39,022 nucleotides of DNA from a virus. The translations under genes and the position numbers were made by a program. The stretch lies in the IMG/VR virus record IMGVR_UViG_3300028595_000006, positions 1-39,022 of that record, one strand, 5' to 3'. The notes under the pieces were generated by a model that was given only the letters and a program-made list of their open reading frames with translations, made no database searches and was not told the origin of the DNA. Position 1 is the first letter of the stretch. Each line of letters begins with the position of its first letter. This document shows positions 1 through 39,022 of this stretch, in pieces.

Positions 1-382
1 TGCCGGGAACTTCAGCACGGCCACTGCCGGGAACTTCGGCACGGCCACTGCTGGAGACGACGGCACGGCCACTGTCGGTGACCGCGGCACGGCCACTGCT
101 GGGAACTACGGCACGGCCACTGCTGGGAACTACGGCACGGCCACTGCTGGGAACTACGGCAAAGCCACCGCTGGGGACTGCGGCACGGCCGCTGTCGGTG
201 ACCGCGGCACGGCTACTGCTGGGAACTACGGCACGGCCGCCGCTGGCGAGCGTGGTTCGATCGCCATCAGATGGCATGATGGCACCCGGCTCAGGACAGT
301 CGTCGGGTACGTAGGCGAAGACGGGATCAAGCCGGACACGATGTATGCGGTCTTTGTCGGCAAACTGATGGAGGCAAAATAA
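1..382 (+). CDS. C-terminal part of DUF7666/octapeptide-repeat protein (continues from the right end of the window)
   Basis: Frame open from the window edge; the first full codon is at position 2 and the stop is TAA at 380-382. It is in phase with the gene that runs off the right end (38435-39022) once the 109-base terminal overlap is removed, giving one protein of about 286 residues. This part holds about ten octapeptides of the type G-T-A-T-A-G-N-Y (24-bp DNA units), then a non-repetitive cap of about 45 residues containing VGYVGEDGIKPDTMY. That cap is shared with the small protein at 34220-34537. The regular TxT-containing octads suggest a beta-solenoid, by analogy with ice-nucleation-type repeats; function is unknown. 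The stop overlaps the next start (TAATG). Confidence 0.85.
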   Translation, partial: AGNFSTATAGNFGTATAGDDGTATVGDRGTATAGNYGTATAGNYGTATAGNYGKATAGDCGTAAVGDRGTATAGNYGTAAAGERGSIAIRWHDGTRLRTVVGYVGEDGIKPDTMYAVFVGKLMEAK

Positions 383-4535: not shown

Positions 4536-5365
4536 TGACACAAGAGAGCGACCTTCACGTCGTGGATGACCCCCTCAAGAAGCCGGTGATTATCTCGCCG
4601 GCCTATACGGTCAACCTCACGACGGAGCAATGCATCGCCGAGACATCGAAGGCTCTCGGCTGGAACGTGCACCGATCGCAGGGGGCTAGCGACGTGGCCC
4701 ACGCGCGGATCAACCTGGCGGCCCAGTTCCTGGACACGCCGCACCCCTACGCCATGTGGATCGATAGCGACATGGTGTTCACGCCGGCCGAATGCTACGC
4801 GCTCTGGATGAACGCGCTCGCCTACGACGCGGACATCATGTGCGCCAGCTACGTCACGAAGAACGCCGGAAACGGGCGCCTGCTCGTCCGGTTCGACGAG
4901 GACCCGATCGCCGGCACCCCGCTGTCCGATGAGGTCTGGCTAGGCAACCGTGGAAGGGTTCGCCCGGTCTCGATGGTACCCTTCGGGTTCACCATGACAT
5001 CACGCCGCGCCTTCGATCTGGCCGGCCAGGATCTTCCCGAAATTGAGTGCAAGGAGAACAAGAGTGGCAAAGCGAAGCCCTGGTTCCAGCAGTACATCCA
5101 AGAGAACCCCGACGGCACGCGAGTCGCCCTCGGAGAGGACTACTCCTTCTCCGTCCGACTCAAGAACGCAGGAGGAAGGATGTTCTGTGACACCCGACTC
5201 CGAGTCGGGCACCTCGGAACCTACGTCTACGAGTGGGAAGACATGTCCGGCACCGTCATCCGAAGCCCCAACGTCCGAGTCAACTTCGTCGACCCCGTGC
5301 CGGCTGTTCCTGACGGCGGACCTGGTCAGCCCCCCGGTGGGGGCCTCGAGGCTCCAGAGGGTTGA
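4535..5365 (+). CDS. Glycosyltransferase-A-fold protein
   Basis: 276 residues. Early beta-strand (PVIISPAYTVNLTTEQ), then a D77-S-D79 motif in MWIDSDMVF, the DXD metal and nucleotide-sugar binding motif. Around residues 200-205 there is GEDYSFSVRLKNAGGRMF with a likely catalytic acidic pair, followed by a conserved-looking GHLGTYVYEW. This is the layout of phage-borne GT-A enzymes that decorate DNA, virion proteins or host glycans. The acceptor is unknown. The Pro/Gly-rich C-terminus is probably disordered. Placement immediately upstream of terminase is notable. Confidence 0.75.
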   Translation: MTQESDLHVVDDPLKKPVIISPAYTVNLTTEQCIAETSKALGWNVHRSQGASDVAHARINLAAQFLDTPHPYAMWIDSDMVFTPAECYALWMNALAYDADIMCASYVTKNAGNGRLLVRFDEDPIAGTPLSDEVWLGNRGRVRPVSMVPFGFTMTSRRAFDLAGQDLPEIECKENKSGKAKPWFQQYIQENPDGTRVALGEDYSFSVRLKNAGGRMFCDTRLRVGHLGTYVYEWEDMSGTVIRSPNVRVNFVDPVPAVPDGGPGQPPGGGLEAPEG

Positions 5366-5462: not shown

Positions 5463-6991
5463 TGGCGTCTCTGACCGAACAGATTCTGACAAACAAGGAT
5501 GGGTTCGGTCTAACGACGGCGACCCCCGTCCAGCGGGCCATCTGCCGTGCGCTGGACGGGGAAGGCCTGGGAGACCTCTGGACTGACCAGAGTGTCCAGG
5601 CAGCTTTCGGCGGCGTCCGACCCCCGGAGGTGAAGCCCCGGGAAGCGGTGGTCCTCGCTGCCATTCGCTCGGGGAAGACGCTGATTGCCTGCGCCAACGC
5701 CATCGCGAGCGCTATCCGGTGCGACATCAGCCATATGCTCGACGGCGAAGCGAGCCCCCGCGTGGGCCTCGTGTCGACCTCGAAGGACAACGCGTCGGTG
5801 CCGTTGGCCCACCTTCAGGGTGCTTTCAGAAAGAGCGCGAAGCTGCGGAAGATCGTGATGAGCGAGAACGCGGACGGGGTGACAATCCGCCACCAGACCG
5901 GGCTTCCCATTGACGTGAAGCTCGTGGCTGGCTCTCGCGCCGGGGCGAACCTGGTCAGCCGGTGGATGGCGGAGGTGATCTTCGACGAGGCTCCGCGCAT
6001 GGTCGGCTCCGACGAAGGCGTTGTGAACCTGGACCACGAGCGAGCTGCAGTCCTCGGCCGGATTCTGCCAGGCGGCCAGATTCTCTACATCGGGAGCCCC
6101 TTCGCTGCGATGGGGCCGGTTTACGACATGGCGCTCTCCAGCTTCGGGAAGCCCAGCGAGGACCTCCTGGTCATTCGGGCCACGGGGCCCATGCTGAACC
6201 CCTACTACTGGACGCCGGAACGCTGCGAGTACATGCGGCGCGCGGACTACGACACGTACCGCACGGACGTTCTCGGCGAGTTCCGGGACCCGGAGTACTC
6301 ACTGCTCTCGGACGAGGCGATAGCCCAGGCCATGACGGCAAAGACAGAGGGCTACATCAACGGCAAGGGTTACACCATTGCGATGGACCCCGCCTTCCGC
6401 ACGAACGCTTGGACCCTGGTCGTGCTCACCTGCGATGGCAAGAACGAGAACGGGGACCTGCGCTACCATGTGGAGCGCGCCTGCCAGTGGTTCTCGAAGC
6501 GAGACGGGATCTCGCCCTCCGACGTGATGGACCAGATTGCGGACATCTGCTCGGAGTACAGGCAGAACGTGGTCCTCACGGACCAGTACCAGTTTGAGGC
6601 GCTCCGTGAGCTTGGCATTCAGCGTGGGGTCTACCTGGTCGAGCAGCAGTTCACCGGGGAGAAGCGCACGGAGGCACTGTCAGCGGTGTGCCACGCGGTC
6701 GAGCAGCGCACGCTCGCGATCCCGCAGGACGAATCCCTGCGTCGGGACCTCCTGAACATCAAGAAACGGATCGCTGGGGACGCTGCGAAAATCTACTTGG
6801 CAAACACCCCAGACGGGAGGCATTGTGATTACGCCTCGGCGCTCGGGATTGCCCTCGCTGCGCCGCCTCCCCCGCCGATCGGAAAGTTCCGGGAGGACGG
6901 GGACACCGTGATGAAGCTGCACCTCCAGGGGCTAGGCTTTGGCAAGAGCCCTATGGAAGCAGCAGTAGAAAGATTGAGGTTCCAGCAATGA
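5462..6991 (+). CDS. terL: Terminase large subunit
   Basis: 509 residues. ATPase domain: Walker A-like A66-A-I-R-S-G-K72-T73 and Walker B V172-I-F-D175-E176-A, with an adapter region and the motif IGSPFAAMGP after it. Nuclease domain: three acidic residues in the expected order, D309 (IAMDPAF), D374 (LTDQYQFE) and D456 (HCDYASA), as in RNase H-like terminase nucleases. The protein cuts concatemeric DNA and drives it into the prohead through the portal. The gene is in the rightward unit, about 23 kb and in the opposite orientation from the portal gene. No small subunit could be identified with confidence. The stop overlaps the next start. Confidence 0.9.
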   Translation: MASLTEQILTNKDGFGLTTATPVQRAICRALDGEGLGDLWTDQSVQAAFGGVRPPEVKPREAVVLAAIRSGKTLIACANAIASAIRCDISHMLDGEASPRVGLVSTSKDNASVPLAHLQGAFRKSAKLRKIVMSENADGVTIRHQTGLPIDVKLVAGSRAGANLVSRWMAEVIFDEAPRMVGSDEGVVNLDHERAAVLGRILPGGQILYIGSPFAAMGPVYDMALSSFGKPSEDLLVIRATGPMLNPYYWTPERCEYMRRADYDTYRTDVLGEFRDPEYSLLSDEAIAQAMTAKTEGYINGKGYTIAMDPAFRTNAWTLVVLTCDGKNENGDLRYHVERACQWFSKRDGISPSDVMDQIADICSEYRQNVVLTDQYQFEALRELGIQRGVYLVEQQFTGEKRTEALSAVCHAVEQRTLAIPQDESLRRDLLNIKKRIAGDAAKIYLANTPDGRHCDYASALGIALAAPPPPPIGKFREDGDTVMKLHLQGLGFGKSPMEAAVERLRFQQ

Positions 6992-26747: not shown

Positions 26748-27719
26748 TCACCCTATGAATGGTAGTTCCGCGATCGCACGAATCCTCGCTCTCTCAGGAT
26801 CGACAGAGCGCGCACGACCCGGGGCCCCCGATGCGGTGGGGTCCAGTGTCCGGCCAGCCTTCCGCTGACGTGCAGGCGGATTAGCGCTCGCCTGTGGCGC
26901 CTCGGCTTGCGCCGGCTTGGTCTTTGCCTGGTACAGCTCCAGCTCTGACAGGGTCGCCGCGAGGTCGAGGCGTCTCCCGGAGTGGAACTGCGAATGCCAG
27001 TACTGGAATGCCTGGTCTCTCACCAGGTCAGGGTTCTGCTTCGCCGCCTCCGCGATGAGCGGCCAGCGGTTCTCGTCGAGCACGGCCTTCCCGAACTTCC
27101 GGTGAATGCTCTGAAGTGCCTGCTGCTGCTCCTGCTGGGCCTGCTGGCGCTTCTGCTGCTCCTCGGCCTGCCGCTTCTGCTCCTCGAGCTGCCGGCGAAG
27201 CTCCTGCACATCTCGCGCTGGATCTGCTTGCCCGTCACGAGCGATTGCACTATTGATCTCCTCGAGAACCTGGAGCCCCGGAAGACCGGTCAGTGCAGAG
27301 AGAGAGTTCAGGATTGACGCAGCGTTTCCAGAACGGAGACCGTTCCACGCATCGTGGAGCTGACCGGCTCGCTTCTGAAGCTCGGACCAGCGCTGCTCGA
27401 GGACATGGTTGCGCTGCTGGAAGTCCTCTTCGCGCTTCTGTAGAGCCTTCTCCTTGCGCTTCAGGCGGCCGTAGAAGGAAGAGACCTTCTCCTCCTCCGA
27501 CTCCTCCTCTTCCTCGCCGTCCTTCTTCTCCTGCTGAGCCTCTGCTTCGGCCTCCCCCGGAGCCTTGGTGGCGGAAGCTTCCTGACCATCCGAATCAGCT
27601 TCCTCTTCCTGGAGTGAGGTGACAGCCTCGTCGGGGATCAGGTCGGCAACCGCATTGATGCGCGGGGCGTCATCAAGAGAGTCGGTTTCTACTGCTGCGG
27701 CTTCTACGGAGTCACTCAT
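26748..27719 (-). CDS. Capsid scaffolding protein
   Basis: 323 residues. Very acidic N-terminus with EEEEESEEEK-type runs, then a long coiled coil rich in Lys, Glu and Gln (RLKRKEKALQKREEDFQQRN, and QLEEQKRQAEEQQKRQQAQQ). The C-terminus is basic and Pro/Ala-rich, suited to binding the capsid lattice. Position between portal and major capsid genes is the classical scaffold location. It is not expected in mature virions. Confidence 0.8.
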   Translation of the reverse strand: MSDSVEAAAVETDSLDDAPRINAVADLIPDEAVTSLQEEEADSDGQEASATKAPGEAEAEAQQEKKDGEEEEESEEEKVSSFYGRLKRKEKALQKREEDFQQRNHVLEQRWSELQKRAGQLHDAWNGLRSGNAASILNSLSALTGLPGLQVLEEINSAIARDGQADPARDVQELRRQLEEQKRQAEEQQKRQQAQQEQQQALQSIHRKFGKAVLDENRWPLIAEAAKQNPDLVRDQAFQYWHSQFHSGRRLDLAATLSELELYQAKTKPAQAEAPQASANPPARQRKAGRTLDPTASGAPGRARSVDPERARIRAIAELPFIG

Positions 27720-31314: not shown

Positions 31315-31490
31315 GGCTCGCGCAGCAAGCGTCCGCTGACGCGAACGCGCGCTCGCTCCTCGGTCGCCTGGGGTCGGCGCCTCGGACGCCTCGGAAAGAC
31401 CTTCAGGGGCTGGGCCTTGAAGGAGTTATCATTCGGAAATTTCAGGTTCCTGGCGCGCGGTGGGTCCCTCGCTGCGCTCGGGCATGCCCC

Positions 31491-31702
31491 GTGCCAAAGG
31501 GGGAATGCAAGATCCGTGCCAACCCGTTGGCATGCTTCTTGCATTAGCACACATCGTGCCACACGTTGGCACACTCCTTGCATTGCAAGATCCGTGCCAC
31601 TGGTAGGCACGACGATTGCATTAGCAAGACCCGTGCCAAGATGGTGGCATGACGCTTGCATTAGCACACACCGTGCCACCTGTTGGCATGACGCTTGCAT
31701 GG
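31491..31702. repeat. Array of about 39-bp units made of divergent sigma-54-like promoter elements
   Basis: Five units begin with GTGCCA at 31516, 31556, 31594, 31633 and 31673 (spacings 40, 38, 39, 40), after a degenerate one at 31491. In each unit the plus strand has T(T)GGCAY-N-TTGCAT, with GG and GC exactly 10 bases apart: GG/GC at 31529/31541, 31568/31580, 31606/31618, 31646/31658 and 31685/31697. The minus strand has the mirror element TGGCACG-N4-(T/G)TGC, for example GC 31507-31508 with CC 31519-31520. The bases between the two blocks vary. This is the -24/-12 promoter pattern of RpoN. It could instead be an iteron array. No coding potential. Confidence 0.7.
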
Positions 31703-33138: not shown

Positions 33139-33214
33139 CCGGCACGGATCTTGCCATTGCAGGATCCGTGCCAACCCGTTGGCACACTCCTTGCCCATGC
33201 AGGATCCGTGCCAA
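33139..33214. repeat. Second array of sigma-54-like elements on both strands
   Basis: Four elements with GG and GC 10 bases apart: plus GG 33141/GC 33153 (GGCACGGATCTTGC); minus CC 33171-33172 with GC 33159-33160; plus GG 33181/GC 33193 (TTGGCACACTCCTTGC); minus CC 33211-33212 with GC 33199-33200. The period is 40. The rightward elements would serve the gene at 33315. Confidence 0.65.
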
Positions 33215-33215
33215 C

Positions 33216-33261
33216 CAGCTGGCGGTCCGGCCGCCTGCCCGGTTCGACTCCGGGCCAGCGG
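33216..33261 (+). other. tRNA-like minihelix A (acceptor stem plus T arm)
   Basis: A perfect T arm: CCCGG, loop TTCGACT, CCGGG (33238-33254). It is flanked by CAGCTGG (33216-33222) and CCAGCGG (33255-33261), which pair at 6 of 7 positions as an acceptor stem. The 15 bases between (33223-33237) can form only a small CGG/CCG hairpin in place of D and anticodon arms. No CCA and no anticodon. Same design as 35680-35726. Confidence 0.5.
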
Positions 33262-33265
33262 ACTA

Positions 33266-33308
33266 TTGGAAGGGAAGCCCTTTGGAAGGAAGCCCTTTGG
33301 AAGGAAGG
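33266..33308 (+). repeat. Three tandem Shine-Dalgarno-like repeats
   Basis: TTGGAAGG(G)AAGCCC at 33266-33280, TTTGGAAGGAAGCCC at 33281-33295 and TTTGGAAGGAAGG at 33296-33308, period 15. The last copy is at the right distance from ATG 33315. Confidence 0.6.
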
Positions 33309-33314
33309 ATGATC

Positions 33315-33731
33315 ATGTCAACTACGGATGAGATTCTCGTGAAACCCGCCCGGGCCGCCGCGCGCGACGCGCTGGCCAATATCTTCAAACCGGTGCGTCC
33401 GACGGGCGATGAGCTCGAACGAGCACTCGCGATAATAGACCAAGATTACCAGGCGGACGTTCGCGCCGTCGTAATCGACGCCCTGGAAGCAGTCGAACGT
33501 GGAGAGATAACGGGCCGTGAGGGTCTCGATGAGTGGCTCTCCCGGGAGATCGAAGATCACGGCCGCATAATCTGTATGCGGCAAGCGAAGCTCGGCCTGT
33601 TTTGCTCGAGCAACGAGGATGCGGCAGACGACGTCGGGGGCGTTTCCGACGTCTCGGAACGCATGTTTTGGGCATTCCGAGCCGACATAGAAGAGCGCCT
33701 GGAGCACTTCAACCTTTTCGGAGACGAGTGA
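33315..33731 (+). CDS. Acidic helical hypothetical protein
   Basis: 138 residues. ATG 33315 is six bases after GGAAGG; the in-frame ATG at 33309 would touch it. Helical sequence (ELERALAIIDQDYQADVRAVVI, ISREIEDHGR-like) with acidic stretches (NEDAADDVGGVSDVSERM) and an acidic C-terminus. Acidic early phage proteins sometimes bind host enzymes, but no such function can be read here. The long structured leader (tRNA-like minihelix, sigma-54-like elements, triplicated ribosome site) suggests tight control. Confidence 0.65.
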   Translation: MSTTDEILVKPARAAARDALANIFKPVRPTGDELERALAIIDQDYQADVRAVVIDALEAVERGEITGREGLDEWLSREIEDHGRIICMRQAKLGLFCSSNEDAADDVGGVSDVSERMFWAFRADIEERLEHFNLFGDE

Positions 33732-33732
33732 G

Positions 33733-34215
33733 ATGCTGCAGACCTATTCGCAATTCCGCCCTACCTCGCTCGATGCCCGAGGACTCGGGCTTGAAGATCA
33801 GCAAGACTGGCTGGTCGCGCCAGTCGTCAGGACACCGAACCTCGACGAGGACCCCCTCACGGTCGCCAACTGGCGAGCAATCCTGGAAGCGATAGAGGAG
33901 CTGGAAGGGGACCACGACGTTCACTACTTCGGCCATTGGGCCACGCCGTTCGAGGTCATCCTCGTCGAGCCAAACACGCCGGCCGCCGAATGGCTGGAAA
34001 AGTGCGCCGACGCGCTCGAGGACTACCCTGTAGTCTGCGAGCACACGCTCTGCGTCGTGGAAGATGAGATGGCCGAAAGAGCGTGGAGACAGCTCGACAA
34101 CGAGGAACGGCGAGCGCTTCTCCGCGAAGCGGGCCTATCGCAGGCCAAGTACCGGTGCGTATTCCCGCCGTCGGACGATCAAGGTCGCATTCAGCAGCGG
34201 CTGCTCGGAAGGTAA
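33733..34215 (+). CDS. Conserved-looking phage protein
   Basis: 160 residues. Motif HYFGHWATPFEVILVEPNTP followed by ALEDYPVVCEHTLCVVEDEM and a charged helix ERAWRQLDNEERRALLREAG. I recall similar small phage proteins with an HW-type motif and a YPV segment, always without a known function. It starts one base after the previous stop. Confidence 0.65.
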   Translation: MLQTYSQFRPTSLDARGLGLEDQQDWLVAPVVRTPNLDEDPLTVANWRAILEAIEELEGDHDVHYFGHWATPFEVILVEPNTPAAEWLEKCADALEDYPVVCEHTLCVVEDEMAERAWRQLDNEERRALLREAGLSQAKYRCVFPPSDDQGRIQQRLLGR

Positions 34216-34219
34216 TCAT

Positions 34220-34537
34220 ATGGTCTACAGCGAAAACGAAGCGATCGTCGGTTCACGAGACACAGCAATGGCCGGAGATGACGGCCGGGCCGAAGCGGGC
34301 CACTTCGGCACAGCCTTTGCCGGGAGGCTAGGCCAAGCTGTCGCAAAGGACTACGGCCTAGCGTTCGCGGGGCCACACGGGAGCGCGATGGCTGGCGACG
34401 ATGGGGTCGTTGCAATCGAGTGGTTCGACGGCTCCCGCCGACGGCTGGCCGTCGGGTACGTGGGCGAAGACGGAATCCAACCGGACACGATGTATGTGGT
34501 TAGGGACGGCAAGCTTGTTAGGAGCAGCGGAACATGA
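34220..34537 (+). CDS. Short octapeptide-repeat protein related to the C-terminal part of the map-end gene
   Basis: 105 residues from ATG 34220, preceded by GGAAGGTAATC. About seven degenerate octads (SRDTAMAGDDGRAEAGHFGT, KDYGLAFAGPHG) are followed by the same cap as in the gene that crosses the map ends: VAIEWFDGSRRRLAVGYVGE and PDTMYVVRDGKLV. It lacks the N-terminal DUF7666-like domain. It looks like a duplicated and diverged repeat-plus-cap unit. Its stop overlaps the next start. Confidence 0.75.
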   Translation: MVYSENEAIVGSRDTAMAGDDGRAEAGHFGTAFAGRLGQAVAKDYGLAFAGPHGSAMAGDDGVVAIEWFDGSRRRLAVGYVGEDGIQPDTMYVVRDGKLVRSSGT

Positions 34538-35061: not shown

Positions 35062-35390
35062 TTGATGTGGCCGAGATCACCGAGCTTCTCTCCGAGCTTC
35101 AACGGTCGGAGAACTTCCAGCCCGCATACCTAGGCAATGACCTGGGCGATGAGCACAGCCTAGAAGTCACGGTCGCAACGACCGACGGAGAGTCCTGGGT
35201 TTACCAGACTGGGGACAATTCGTTCTTCGGGCCCTGCTACTTCCACCCGTTCTGGGCAGTTGTATGGCTTCACTCCGACAGCGACCCTGCCGAGCTTGCG
35301 GCAGATCTCGTGCAAGAGCTTGACGATCTGGTTGAGGAAGATCGCTATCTGAATGGGGAGTCCTCCGCCGAGGAAGGGGACGAATCATGA
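35058..35390 (+). CDS. Hypothetical acidic protein
   Basis: 110 residues (ATGA overlap). Contains LEVTVATTDGESWVYQTGDN, SFFGPCYFHPFWAVVWLHSD and an acidic C-terminal tail (ELDDLVEEDRYLNGESSAEE). No family recognised. Part of a run of closely coupled small genes (34220-35674). Confidence 0.6.
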   Translation: MIDVAEITELLSELQRSENFQPAYLGNDLGDEHSLEVTVATTDGESWVYQTGDNSFFGPCYFHPFWAVVWLHSDSDPAELAADLVQELDDLVEEDRYLNGESSAEEGDES

Positions 35391-35674
35391 ATGACACAAC
35401 CCGTGGCCACTTGGCCGACCTAGCGGAGAAGGAGAAGCATCTTCGCACGGTCGGCCGCTTCGACGAAGCTGCGTTGATGAACGGCGCCGCGGAAGAGTAC
35501 GCCCGAACGGAAGCCCCACTCTGGGAGTGCCAGGCTTTCGGGCAAGGCATGCCTCGCCATAGGTGCGAGTGCGGTGCAGAGATCGAACCGCTCGCGCCGT
35601 CACTCTGCAACCGTTGCTGGTACTTCAAACGCCAGGAAGCGCTTCGGTTGTACGGCAAAGCGTGTGGCAGGTGA
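35387..35674 (+). CDS. Zinc-ribbon-like hypothetical protein
   Basis: 95 residues (ATGA overlap). The C-terminal half has CECGAEIEPLAPSLCNRCWYF, a C-x-C...C-x-x-C pattern suggesting a single zinc ribbon or knuckle. The N-terminus is a charged helix (RGHLADLAEKEKHLRTVG). The stop is six bases before tRNA-like minihelix B. Confidence 0.6.
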   Translation: MNDTTRGHLADLAEKEKHLRTVGRFDEAALMNGAAEEYARTEAPLWECQAFGQGMPRHRCECGAEIEPLAPSLCNRCWYFKRQEALRLYGKACGR

Positions 35675-35679
35675 CCGCT

Positions 35680-35726
35680 TCCCTCGGCCGGTCGGCGGCC
35701 CACTGGGTTCGACTCCCAGCGAGGGA
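35680..35726 (+). other. tRNA-like minihelix B (acceptor stem plus T arm)
   Basis: TCCCTCG (35680-35686) and CGAGGGA (35720-35726) pair perfectly as a 7-bp acceptor stem. The T arm CTGGG, TTCGACT, CCCAG (35703-35719) is perfect. The 16 bases between (35687-35702, GCCGGTCGGCGGCCCA) can form a GCCG/CGGC mini-hairpin where D and anticodon arms would be. No CCA follows. It occupies the leader of the gene at 35759. Confidence 0.6.
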
Positions 35727-35727
35727 C

Positions 35728-35744
35728 TGGCACAATCTGTGCCT
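35728..35744. promoter_or_regulatory. TGGCAC-N5-GTGCC dyad in the leader of 35759
   Basis: TGGCAC-AATCT-GTGCCT, directly after minihelix B and before the GGAAGGAAG ribosome site. GG and GC are 10 bases apart, so it also fits the -24/-12 spacing with GTGC for TTGC. Confidence 0.45.
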
Positions 35745-35758
35745 TGGAAGGAAGATCA

Positions 35759-36232
35759 ATGAACTACAGCAAGCTACAAGCTGCACTCGCCCATGCCGCC
35801 GATCGTCGCGACCGCGCAACTCTGCACCAGAATGCCGCGCGAAACGCGGAGGCGGACGCGCTAGATGCGCTTCTGGAGCTACTCGCGCCGCGGCTCTCGA
35901 CGGTCGCGAAGCCAATCCTAAGCGCAAAGTCGGGCCAGTACAAAGGGATTCCCCTGCGTTTGAATAGGCTATTCGTTGCCATTGCCGAGCATCACAACTC
36001 CAGGCTTCCGATATTCTTGGAGGTCACCTATTCCGGTGCTGCGCTTATCCGGTCCTCCCGAGAGGTAGTGGAAGACTGGCCTGCCGCCAGAAACGTGGAA
36101 GGCGTCGCCAAAACGATTCTAGAATTCCTGGTGAAGGAGGGCGACGAAGCCGCGGGAGAGTACGAGGAAGCCATGAGGGAGATTGCGCGCGCCGAGTCGG
36201 CGCTTAGGGCAATTCGCGAGGCGAAGGAGTGA
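35759..36232 (+). CDS. Hypothetical helical protein
   Basis: 157 residues. ATG 35759 has TTGGAAGGAAG six bases upstream, as in the leader of 33315. Ala-rich helices at the N-terminus (LQAALAHAADRRDRATLHQN) and a central beta-like segment (LPIFLEVTYSGAALIRSS). The C-terminus is charged and helical (EAMREIARAESALRAIREAK). No family recognised. Confidence 0.65.
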   Translation: MNYSKLQAALAHAADRRDRATLHQNAARNAEADALDALLELLAPRLSTVAKPILSAKSGQYKGIPLRLNRLFVAIAEHHNSRLPIFLEVTYSGAALIRSSREVVEDWPAARNVEGVAKTILEFLVKEGDEAAGEYEEAMREIARAESALRAIREAKE

Positions 36233-38435: not shown

Positions 38436-39022
38436 TGCTAGTCCTCAGAACTTGCAAATCAGACATGACCTCCTGGGAGGGCTTCAAGTGGCCAGAGTCT
38501 GGCCCTGTCGAATGCCCGGACTGGGATTCGGAGCCTATCTGCGGGTTCGGTCTGCACGGCTTCGCCTGGGGTCAGGGCAAAGGCAACCTTGCAGACTGGG
38601 ACAGCGACGCCAAGTGGCTCGTGGTAGACGTTCCCGACGAGTCCGTCGTAGACCTGGGCGGTAAGGTGAAATTTCCACGAGGAGAGGTCATCTACTGTGG
38701 CGACCGGAAAGGGGCTACGAGCTACCTGACCAGCCGAGGATGCTCTGGAGTTATCGGGGCGGAGACCACAGTCGGGCACTACGGCGTAGCCGCTGCTGGA
38801 TACCGCGGCACGGCCACTGCCGGGAACTTCAGCACGGCCACTGCCGGGAACTTCGGCACGGCCACTGCTGGAGACGACGGCACGGCCACTGTCGGTGACC
38901 GCGGCACGGCCACTGCCGGGAACTTCAGCACGGCCACTGCCGGGAACTTCGGCACGGCCACTGCTGGAGACGACGGCACGGCCACTGTCGGTGACCGCGG
39001 CACGGCCACTGCTGGGAACTAC
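38435..39022 (+). CDS. DUF7666-like domain plus octapeptide repeats (N-terminal part; continues at position 1)
   Basis: 196 codons to the window edge. The first about 110 residues match what I remember of the DUF7666 family: LRTCKSDMTSWEGFKWPESG, PVECPDW, CGFGLHGFAWGQGKG, AKWLVVDVPDESVVDLGGKV, KFPRGEVIYCGDR. From about residue 117 octads G-T-A-T-A-G-N-F take over, coded by 24-bp units. Two identical 96-bp super-units lie at 38809-38904 and 38905-39000. After the 109-base overlap the frame continues at position 2 and ends at 382. No catalytic residue is known for the family. Repeat number may be wrong if reads were short. Confidence 0.8.
   Translation, partial: MLVLRTCKSDMTSWEGFKWPESGPVECPDWDSEPICGFGLHGFAWGQGKGNLADWDSDAKWLVVDVPDESVVDLGGKVKFPRGEVIYCGDRKGATSYLTSRGCSGVIGAETTVGHYGVAAAGYRGTATAGNFSTATAGNFGTATAGDDGTATVGDRGTATAGNFSTATAGNFGTATAGDDGTATVGDRGTATAGNY
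38782..39022 (+). repeat. 24-bp tandem repeats (right-hand part; continue at 1-246)
   Basis: Units like CACGGCCACTGCCGGGAACT plus four more bases, coding for one octapeptide each. Four units form a 96-bp higher-order unit that is present twice without a mismatch (38809-38904, 38905-39000). The array continues from position 1 to about 246 with diverged units. Confidence 0.85.
38914..39022 (+). repeat. Terminal direct repeat, identical to 1-109
   Basis: All 109 bases match positions 1-109. Because it lies inside tandem repeats within a gene, it is more likely an overlap from linearising a circular assembly than a true packaged terminal repeat. Confidence 0.85.

Follow-up and report, generated by a model that had tools for sequence, protein, structure and literature searches.

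The viral DNA analyzed here, a 39,022-nt stretch from IMG/VR record IMGVR_UViG_3300028595_000006 to which we refer as the window, contains two tRNA-like elements devoid of an anticodon arm, both on the plus strand and both located in the leader of an early gene. Copy 1 lies at positions 35680 to 35727 and copy 2 at positions 33215 to 33262. As judged from their sequences, the element is real and its structure is under constraint. Since the two copies carry matching compensating changes, we consider the tRNA-like element to be probably functional, as a working control or processing site.

Structure and setting of copy 1

Copy 1 was delineated from its sequence, its MFE fold and its consensus with copy 2. 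Positions 35680-35726 are composed of TCCCTCG, GCCGGTCGGCGGCCCA, the T arm CTGGG-TTCGACT-CCCAG and CGAGGGA, with 7 of 7 acceptor pairs and 5 of 5 T-stem pairs, all of them Watson-Crick, and with 16 bases separating the acceptor from the T arm. An initial annotation of this DNA had described the segment as a bare minihelix, in which a perfect acceptor stem and T arm were stacked without D or anticodon arm. Both the sequence and the predicted fold of copy 1 agree with a tRNA-like acceptor/T stack, and the anticodon arm is indeed absent, but an arm is present at the D-arm position (GGCCG-GTCGG-CGGCC). This short arm (GGCCG-GUCGG-CGGCC in the RNA; 35686-35700, plus strand) was obtained by folding, has a matching arm in copy 2 and consists of five pairs built from the middle 16 bases plus G35686. 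The outer stem joins 35680-35685 to 35721-35726, with G35686-C35720 as an optional seventh pair, and the T arm (CUGGG-UUCGACU-CCCAG, 35703-35719) is supported by its sequence and by shuffle statistics. Because the middle bases pair into a D-position arm, copy 1 is, according to the MFE model (-25.4 kcal/mol) and the consensus with copy 2, a three-way junction corresponding to a tRNA minus its anticodon arm, and not a bare minihelix.

Among the features of a canonical tRNA, copy 1 possesses the acceptor and the T arm, the acceptor of copy 2 being weak; an anticodon arm and a recognizable gene model are absent, and the linker measures 16 or 15 nt. ARAGORN called no tRNA in the whole window, and Rfam at its cut-offs returned nothing in the window and no tRNA family match for the element. 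A tmRNA identity was discarded, as ARAGORN found none and the element is too short for a tag-encoding loop. The Rfam model closest to copy 1 was mascRNA-menRNA (RF01684), with 25.0 bits and an E value of 0.042, below its cut-off of 42.5. These RNAs, from the 3' ends of MALAT1 and NEAT1, share with copy 1 an acceptor stem, a T arm with its T loop and a short arm that replaces the D and anticodon arms, and the match spans the full length of copy 1. The mascRNA is a product of RNase P, and it differs from the present element in belonging to a vertebrate nuclear lncRNA. As common descent is implausible, we regard the likeness as a resemblance in shape only.

From position 34064 on, the early genes of the plus strand follow each other with overlapping stop and start codons, and the sole gap (35675-35758) is occupied by copy 1, by a predicted hairpin directly 3' of it (GGCACA-AUC-UGUGCC, 35729-35743) and by the ribosome-binding stretch TTGGAAGGAAG (35744-35754), before the ATG at 35759. 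The upstream gene (35387-35674, plus strand, 95 aa), supported by codon-position G+C, ends 5 nt before the element, and the downstream gene (35759-36232, plus strand) encodes a 157-aa protein without family match. The ribosome-binding stretch is common to the leader of copy 2: within the window, exact TTGGAAGGAAG occurs only at 33282, 33297 and 35744, in all cases after one of the two copies. In the leader of copy 1, it is unsequestered in the predicted fold. Codon-position G+C marked the genes flanking the copies as coding and both leaders as non-coding, in agreement with the initially annotated position in the leader of an early gene. The same measure ruled out an antisense ORF at 35167-35733 as a gene and an open frame through copy 2 as coding.

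The chance frequency of the pattern was evaluated by shuffling the window 600 times. Per strand, the shuffles gave on average 0.075 T arms whose five pairs were all Watson-Crick, whereas three were observed, all on the plus strand, and two or more T arms never occurred within one shuffle (0/600). A T arm combined with both a 7/7 acceptor and a 6- to 25-nt linker was likewise found in 0/600 shuffles, and a 7/7 acceptor arose in 0.6% of the shuffles of the upstream bases when the T arm of copy 1 was given. The folding energy of this GC-rich leader is unexceptional for its composition (z = -0.28 for 101 nt and -1.67 for the 47 nt). What speaks for the element is therefore its tRNA-specific pattern together with the second copy, and not its folding stability. 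Chance pairing in a GC-rich leader would be in line with energy z-scores near 0 to -1.7 and with the 6/7 acceptor matches (G-U allowed) that are frequent by chance around real T arms, but the pattern statistics, the second copy and its compensatory changes make this explanation highly improbable.

Copy 2 and the compensatory changes

Copy 2, which the initial annotation had missed, was identified as direct repeat D5, by an ungapped alignment and by a consensus structure. Positions 33221-33258 match copy 1 without gaps at 27 of 38 positions (71%), the best result of the repeat search in the window, and this identity was reached in 1 of 400 shuffles. Over 48 columns, the two copies align without gaps and are identical at 29. 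On the plus strand, copy 2 comprises an outer stem CC(A)GC/GCGG, an arm at 33221-33235 and a T arm at 33238-33254. The consensus structure contains 14 pairs, of which 5 are changed on both sides, 1 is changed on one side, 8 are unchanged and none is broken. In the two inner arms, the short arm and the T arm, none of the ten pairs is lost, and three have changes on both sides; the six changed positions are thus all compensated, and random changes would keep the ten pairs with P = 0.0011. This covariation, which is between two copies inside one genome, indicates a structure under constraint.

The loops are also alike. An 11-nt T-loop core, GGUUCGACUCC, is identical between the copies, and both T loops fit UUCRANN. 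The loops of the short arms, GUCGG in copy 1 and UCCGG in copy 2, both end in CGG. In tRNA, the GG of the D loop touches the T loop, and an analogous elbow contact between the GG of the short loop and the T loop is possible in both copies as modeled. Copy 2 has a weaker outer stem, with 4 pairs and a bulged A, which was equalled in 3% of flank shuffles; in the tRNA register, a stem of 6/7 pairs was reached in 15% of shuffles, which is not significant. Alternative folds also compete with the element fold in copy 2. Both copies thus give good support to the T arm and the short arm, and the outer stem is firm in copy 1 only, given the weak stem and competing folds of copy 2.

Downstream of copy 2 lies the first early gene (33315-33731, plus strand, 138 aa, without family match), which is supported by codon-position G+C and has an alternative start at the ATG at 33309. 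Three tandem ribosome-binding stretches of the form TTGGAAGG(G)AAG (33266-33307, plus strand) separate it from the element. Such a threefold array of CCCTTTGGAAGGAAG-like stretches before one gene is a feature in its own right, and the stretches could pair with each other. Upstream of copy 2, a predicted sigma-54-type promoter, TTGGCACACTCCTTGCC (33179-33195, plus strand), has its predicted start at about 33206, and copy 2 begins about 9 to 10 nt after this start.

The location of copy 2 where a transcript is predicted to begin, and that of copy 1 in an intercistronic gap, would suit a GC-rich structural insulator or a stabilizer of mRNA 5' ends whose likeness to tRNA is incidental. Both structures are stable, though not beyond what their composition gives. 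Such a role would need neither an identical 11-nt T-loop core nor a UUCRANN sequence in both loops, and two T arms were never drawn together in the shuffles, so we find it unlikely.

Promoters, phage affiliation and relatives

Sigma-54-type sites scoring at least 16 of 17 number 12 in the window, against 0.15 expected. An array of such -24/-12 sites in both orientations occupies 31489-31700 and 33139-33214, with back-to-back pairs ~40 nt apart. The early region thus appears to be run by sigma-54, which is unusual for a phage; no gene for a sigma-54 activator was recognized in the window. A sigma-54-like match at 35727 was rejected as weak, since it scores 14/17 and shuffles give 11.6 matches per window at that score.

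The protein families recognizable in the phage are TerL, portal, RecT and the major head protein. The head protein belongs to PHROG family phrog_9953, as does that of a very divergent 26-kb contig (L050, IMGVR_UViG_3300032278_002452), which carries a back-to-back sigma-54 pair at 2369-2428; in both genomes the structural genes are on the other strand. Since the nearest named relatives of the phrog_9953 head protein are those of Myxococcus phages Mx8 and Mx9, a host in the Myxococcota is no more than a fair guess. At position 4989, a gene of L050 is preceded by a single T arm, which we treat as a lead and not as a homologue because its outer stem is partial and a matching short arm is missing. 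Both ends of the window (1-250 and 38780-39022) carry the same tandem repeat (GGCACGGCCACTGC...), and this identity suggests that a circular or permuted genome was opened within a gene rich in repeats. The protein encoded at 34064-34537 (phrog_18079) contains a similar repeat.

No near relative of this phage was found in the collections searched. Protein searches gave no relatives of TerL, portal or the product of the gene after copy 1 in viral_contigs, none of RecT in genome_contigs, and none of TerL, portal or the 26748-27719 protein in INPHARED. Nor did these collections yield a convincing homologue of the element outside this genome, so that covariation is seen between its two copies only. 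A covariance model (R1) built from copies 1 and 2, with self-scores of 67.5 and 65.2 bits, found nothing further above 18 bits in the window and nothing convincing over 16 other loci and 178 genomes; its genome matches were weak (33.4 bits at best), most of them without a proper T loop or proper pairs.

Some lookalikes were discarded. Searches for module patterns (a T loop with TTGGAAGG, or a sigma-54 site with a T loop) picked up genuine tRNAs or else matches that had no acceptor with a short linker, and the lookalikes in loci L011, L032 and L042 were about as numerous as expected by chance for that pattern. The similarity of the copy 1 T arm and part of the 3' side to tRNA-Leu in two huge-phage contigs was read as ordinary T-arm similarity. 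As a separate observation, three loci of viral_contigs (L054, L060 and L068) have TGTTGCACACCGTGGGCAACTAAGTGTGT in common, after which come a T arm and CCCCAGAGCCAA; their T-arm stems differ by compensation (CCTGG/CCAGG, GAAGG/CCTTC), and ARAGORN found no tRNA in ~230 bp around the T arm, which perhaps belongs to an unusual tRNA gene. Myxococcus phage Mx1 (L078 560-625; 45208) has a T arm, TCTGGGTTCGACTCCCAGCAGGGCC, nearly identical to that of copy 1. It sits in a tRNA array, and neither the record nor ARAGORN places a tRNA there.

Fragments of tRNA commonly surround phage integration (PMC9897764), and the element might be a relic, either a deletion derivative of a tRNA gene or an attachment-site core copied from the 3' end of a host tRNA. 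It resembles the attachment sites found in tRNA genes in that a T arm and the 3' side of the acceptor lie in a phage genome; Mx8, for example, has such a T arm at 6464 on the minus strand, within its integrase gene (int). Attachment cores, however, consist of the T arm and the 3' acceptor side without a perfect 5' side, whereas here the full 5' acceptor strand is present, CCA is missing and two copies lie in leaders; the Mx8 segment ends in GCCA and copy 1 in CUGG. No integrase appeared among the window proteins scanned, which represent part of the ORFs and mostly match no family. The T arm and 3' side of copy 1 occurred in 0/189 genomes of a phylum sampled as a stand-in for the Myxococcota, the host phylum itself being guessed. 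Decay should moreover break pairs, and neither copy has lost an inner pair. Since the 5' strand is intact, CCA is missing, both copies show compensation and, as far as the guessed host phylum applies, the 189 genomes lack the sequence, we disfavor a relic or attachment site as quite unlikely.

Possible functions of the element

Our leading, tentative interpretation is that this tRNA-mimicking leader element is a processing site for RNase P or RNase Z. The enzymes of tRNA maturation read the acceptor/T stack and a 3' end devoid of CCA suits RNase Z, which is why these two enzymes are favored; that the T loop is identical although its stems vary suggests that the loop is what is recognized. Of the two ~48-nt RNAs, which imitate the upper half of a tRNA, copy 2 opens the early operon at its 5' end and copy 1 occupies the single gap between genes of that operon. 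A tRNA-like elbow would form between the short loop, with its GG, and the identical T loop, and this elbow would recruit a host tRNA-maturation enzyme. RNase P would cut 5' of the outer stem and RNase Z would perhaps cut next, on the 3' side of that stem. Cleavage would split the upstream from the downstream message and provide the downstream mRNA with a new 5' end. After copy 1 is cut out, the downstream mRNA would start with the hairpin at 35729-35743, its ribosome-binding stretch being open.

Acceptor/T-arm hairpins are established model substrates of RNase P (PMC11143913, PMC10465520), and in pATSer substrates the T loop contacts the T-loop binding site of the RNase P RNA (PMC10465520). 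Copy 1 resembles pAT1 and pATSer in its continuous acceptor/T stack, its natural T loop and a U at -1, favorable for RNase P, and differs from them in its extra short arm, in lacking an RCCA end and G1-C72, and in that its cleavage is only predicted. Bacterial RNase P has mRNA substrates too, and phage M3 RNA, C4 RNA and T4 gene 32 mRNA are reported substrates (PMC11143913). These are non-tRNA phage transcripts as well; C4 differs in being an antisense RNA, and cleavage is only predicted for the element described here. A 3' RCCA by the acceptor is absent in both copies: in copy 1 the end pair is U1-A72 and CUGG stands in place of RCCA; in copy 2 the base at -1 is A, the end pair is C1-G72 and the sequence is ACUA, with only the AC of RCCA. 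As copy 1 lacks both RCCA and G1-C72, the identity of the enzyme is a guess. Other points against processing are the weak outer stem of copy 2, the competing folds, the unremarkable z-scores and the failure of the searches to turn up a homologue in other genomes.

Nearly as likely, though again doubtful, is that a protein of the host or the phage that reads the T arm or the acceptor/T stack, such as TruB, TrmA, EF-Tu or a CCA-adding enzyme, acts on the leader by binding or modification, without cleavage, and in this way controls translation or stability for both downstream genes. An invariant GGUUCGACUCC core on stems that change by compensation is what a recognized loop would give, 17-nt T arms are enough for TruB and TrmA, and binding would tolerate the weak outer stem of copy 2. 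A ribosome-binding stretch is near both copies, but the fold of copy 1 leaves these stretches unsequestered, and no known binding protein was recognized in the window.

The initial annotation had also envisaged a tRNA decoy. The anticodon arm is the usual target of tRNA-cleaving defenses, and its absence makes a decoy for anticodon nucleases unlikely. Another comparison is with the start-associated sequences of cluster K mycobacteriophages, reportedly a leader module that recurs before selected genes, contains a conserved ribosome-binding motif and, in some cases, includes an inverted repeat. To our knowledge, they have no T loop or tRNA likeness and no sequence relation to the two copies. They were described in cluster K phages (PMC3203893) and serve here as a comparison system.

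It is unusual to find two tRNA-like leader elements that covary with each other and that are, as far as sequence can tell, known from one genome only. It is conceivable, although we would not yet bet on it, that a class of anticodon-less tRNA mimics built into the leaders of sigma-54-driven phage operons directs the host machinery of tRNA processing or tRNA binding to selected early messages. If the element is a binding site, it would represent a cis-element recognized by tRNA-binding proteins. If it is a processing site, the phage would use inside its own mRNA a minimal RNase P substrate that has so far been mainly a laboratory construct; few of the natural mRNA substrates of RNase P in bacteria possess a real tRNA elbow.
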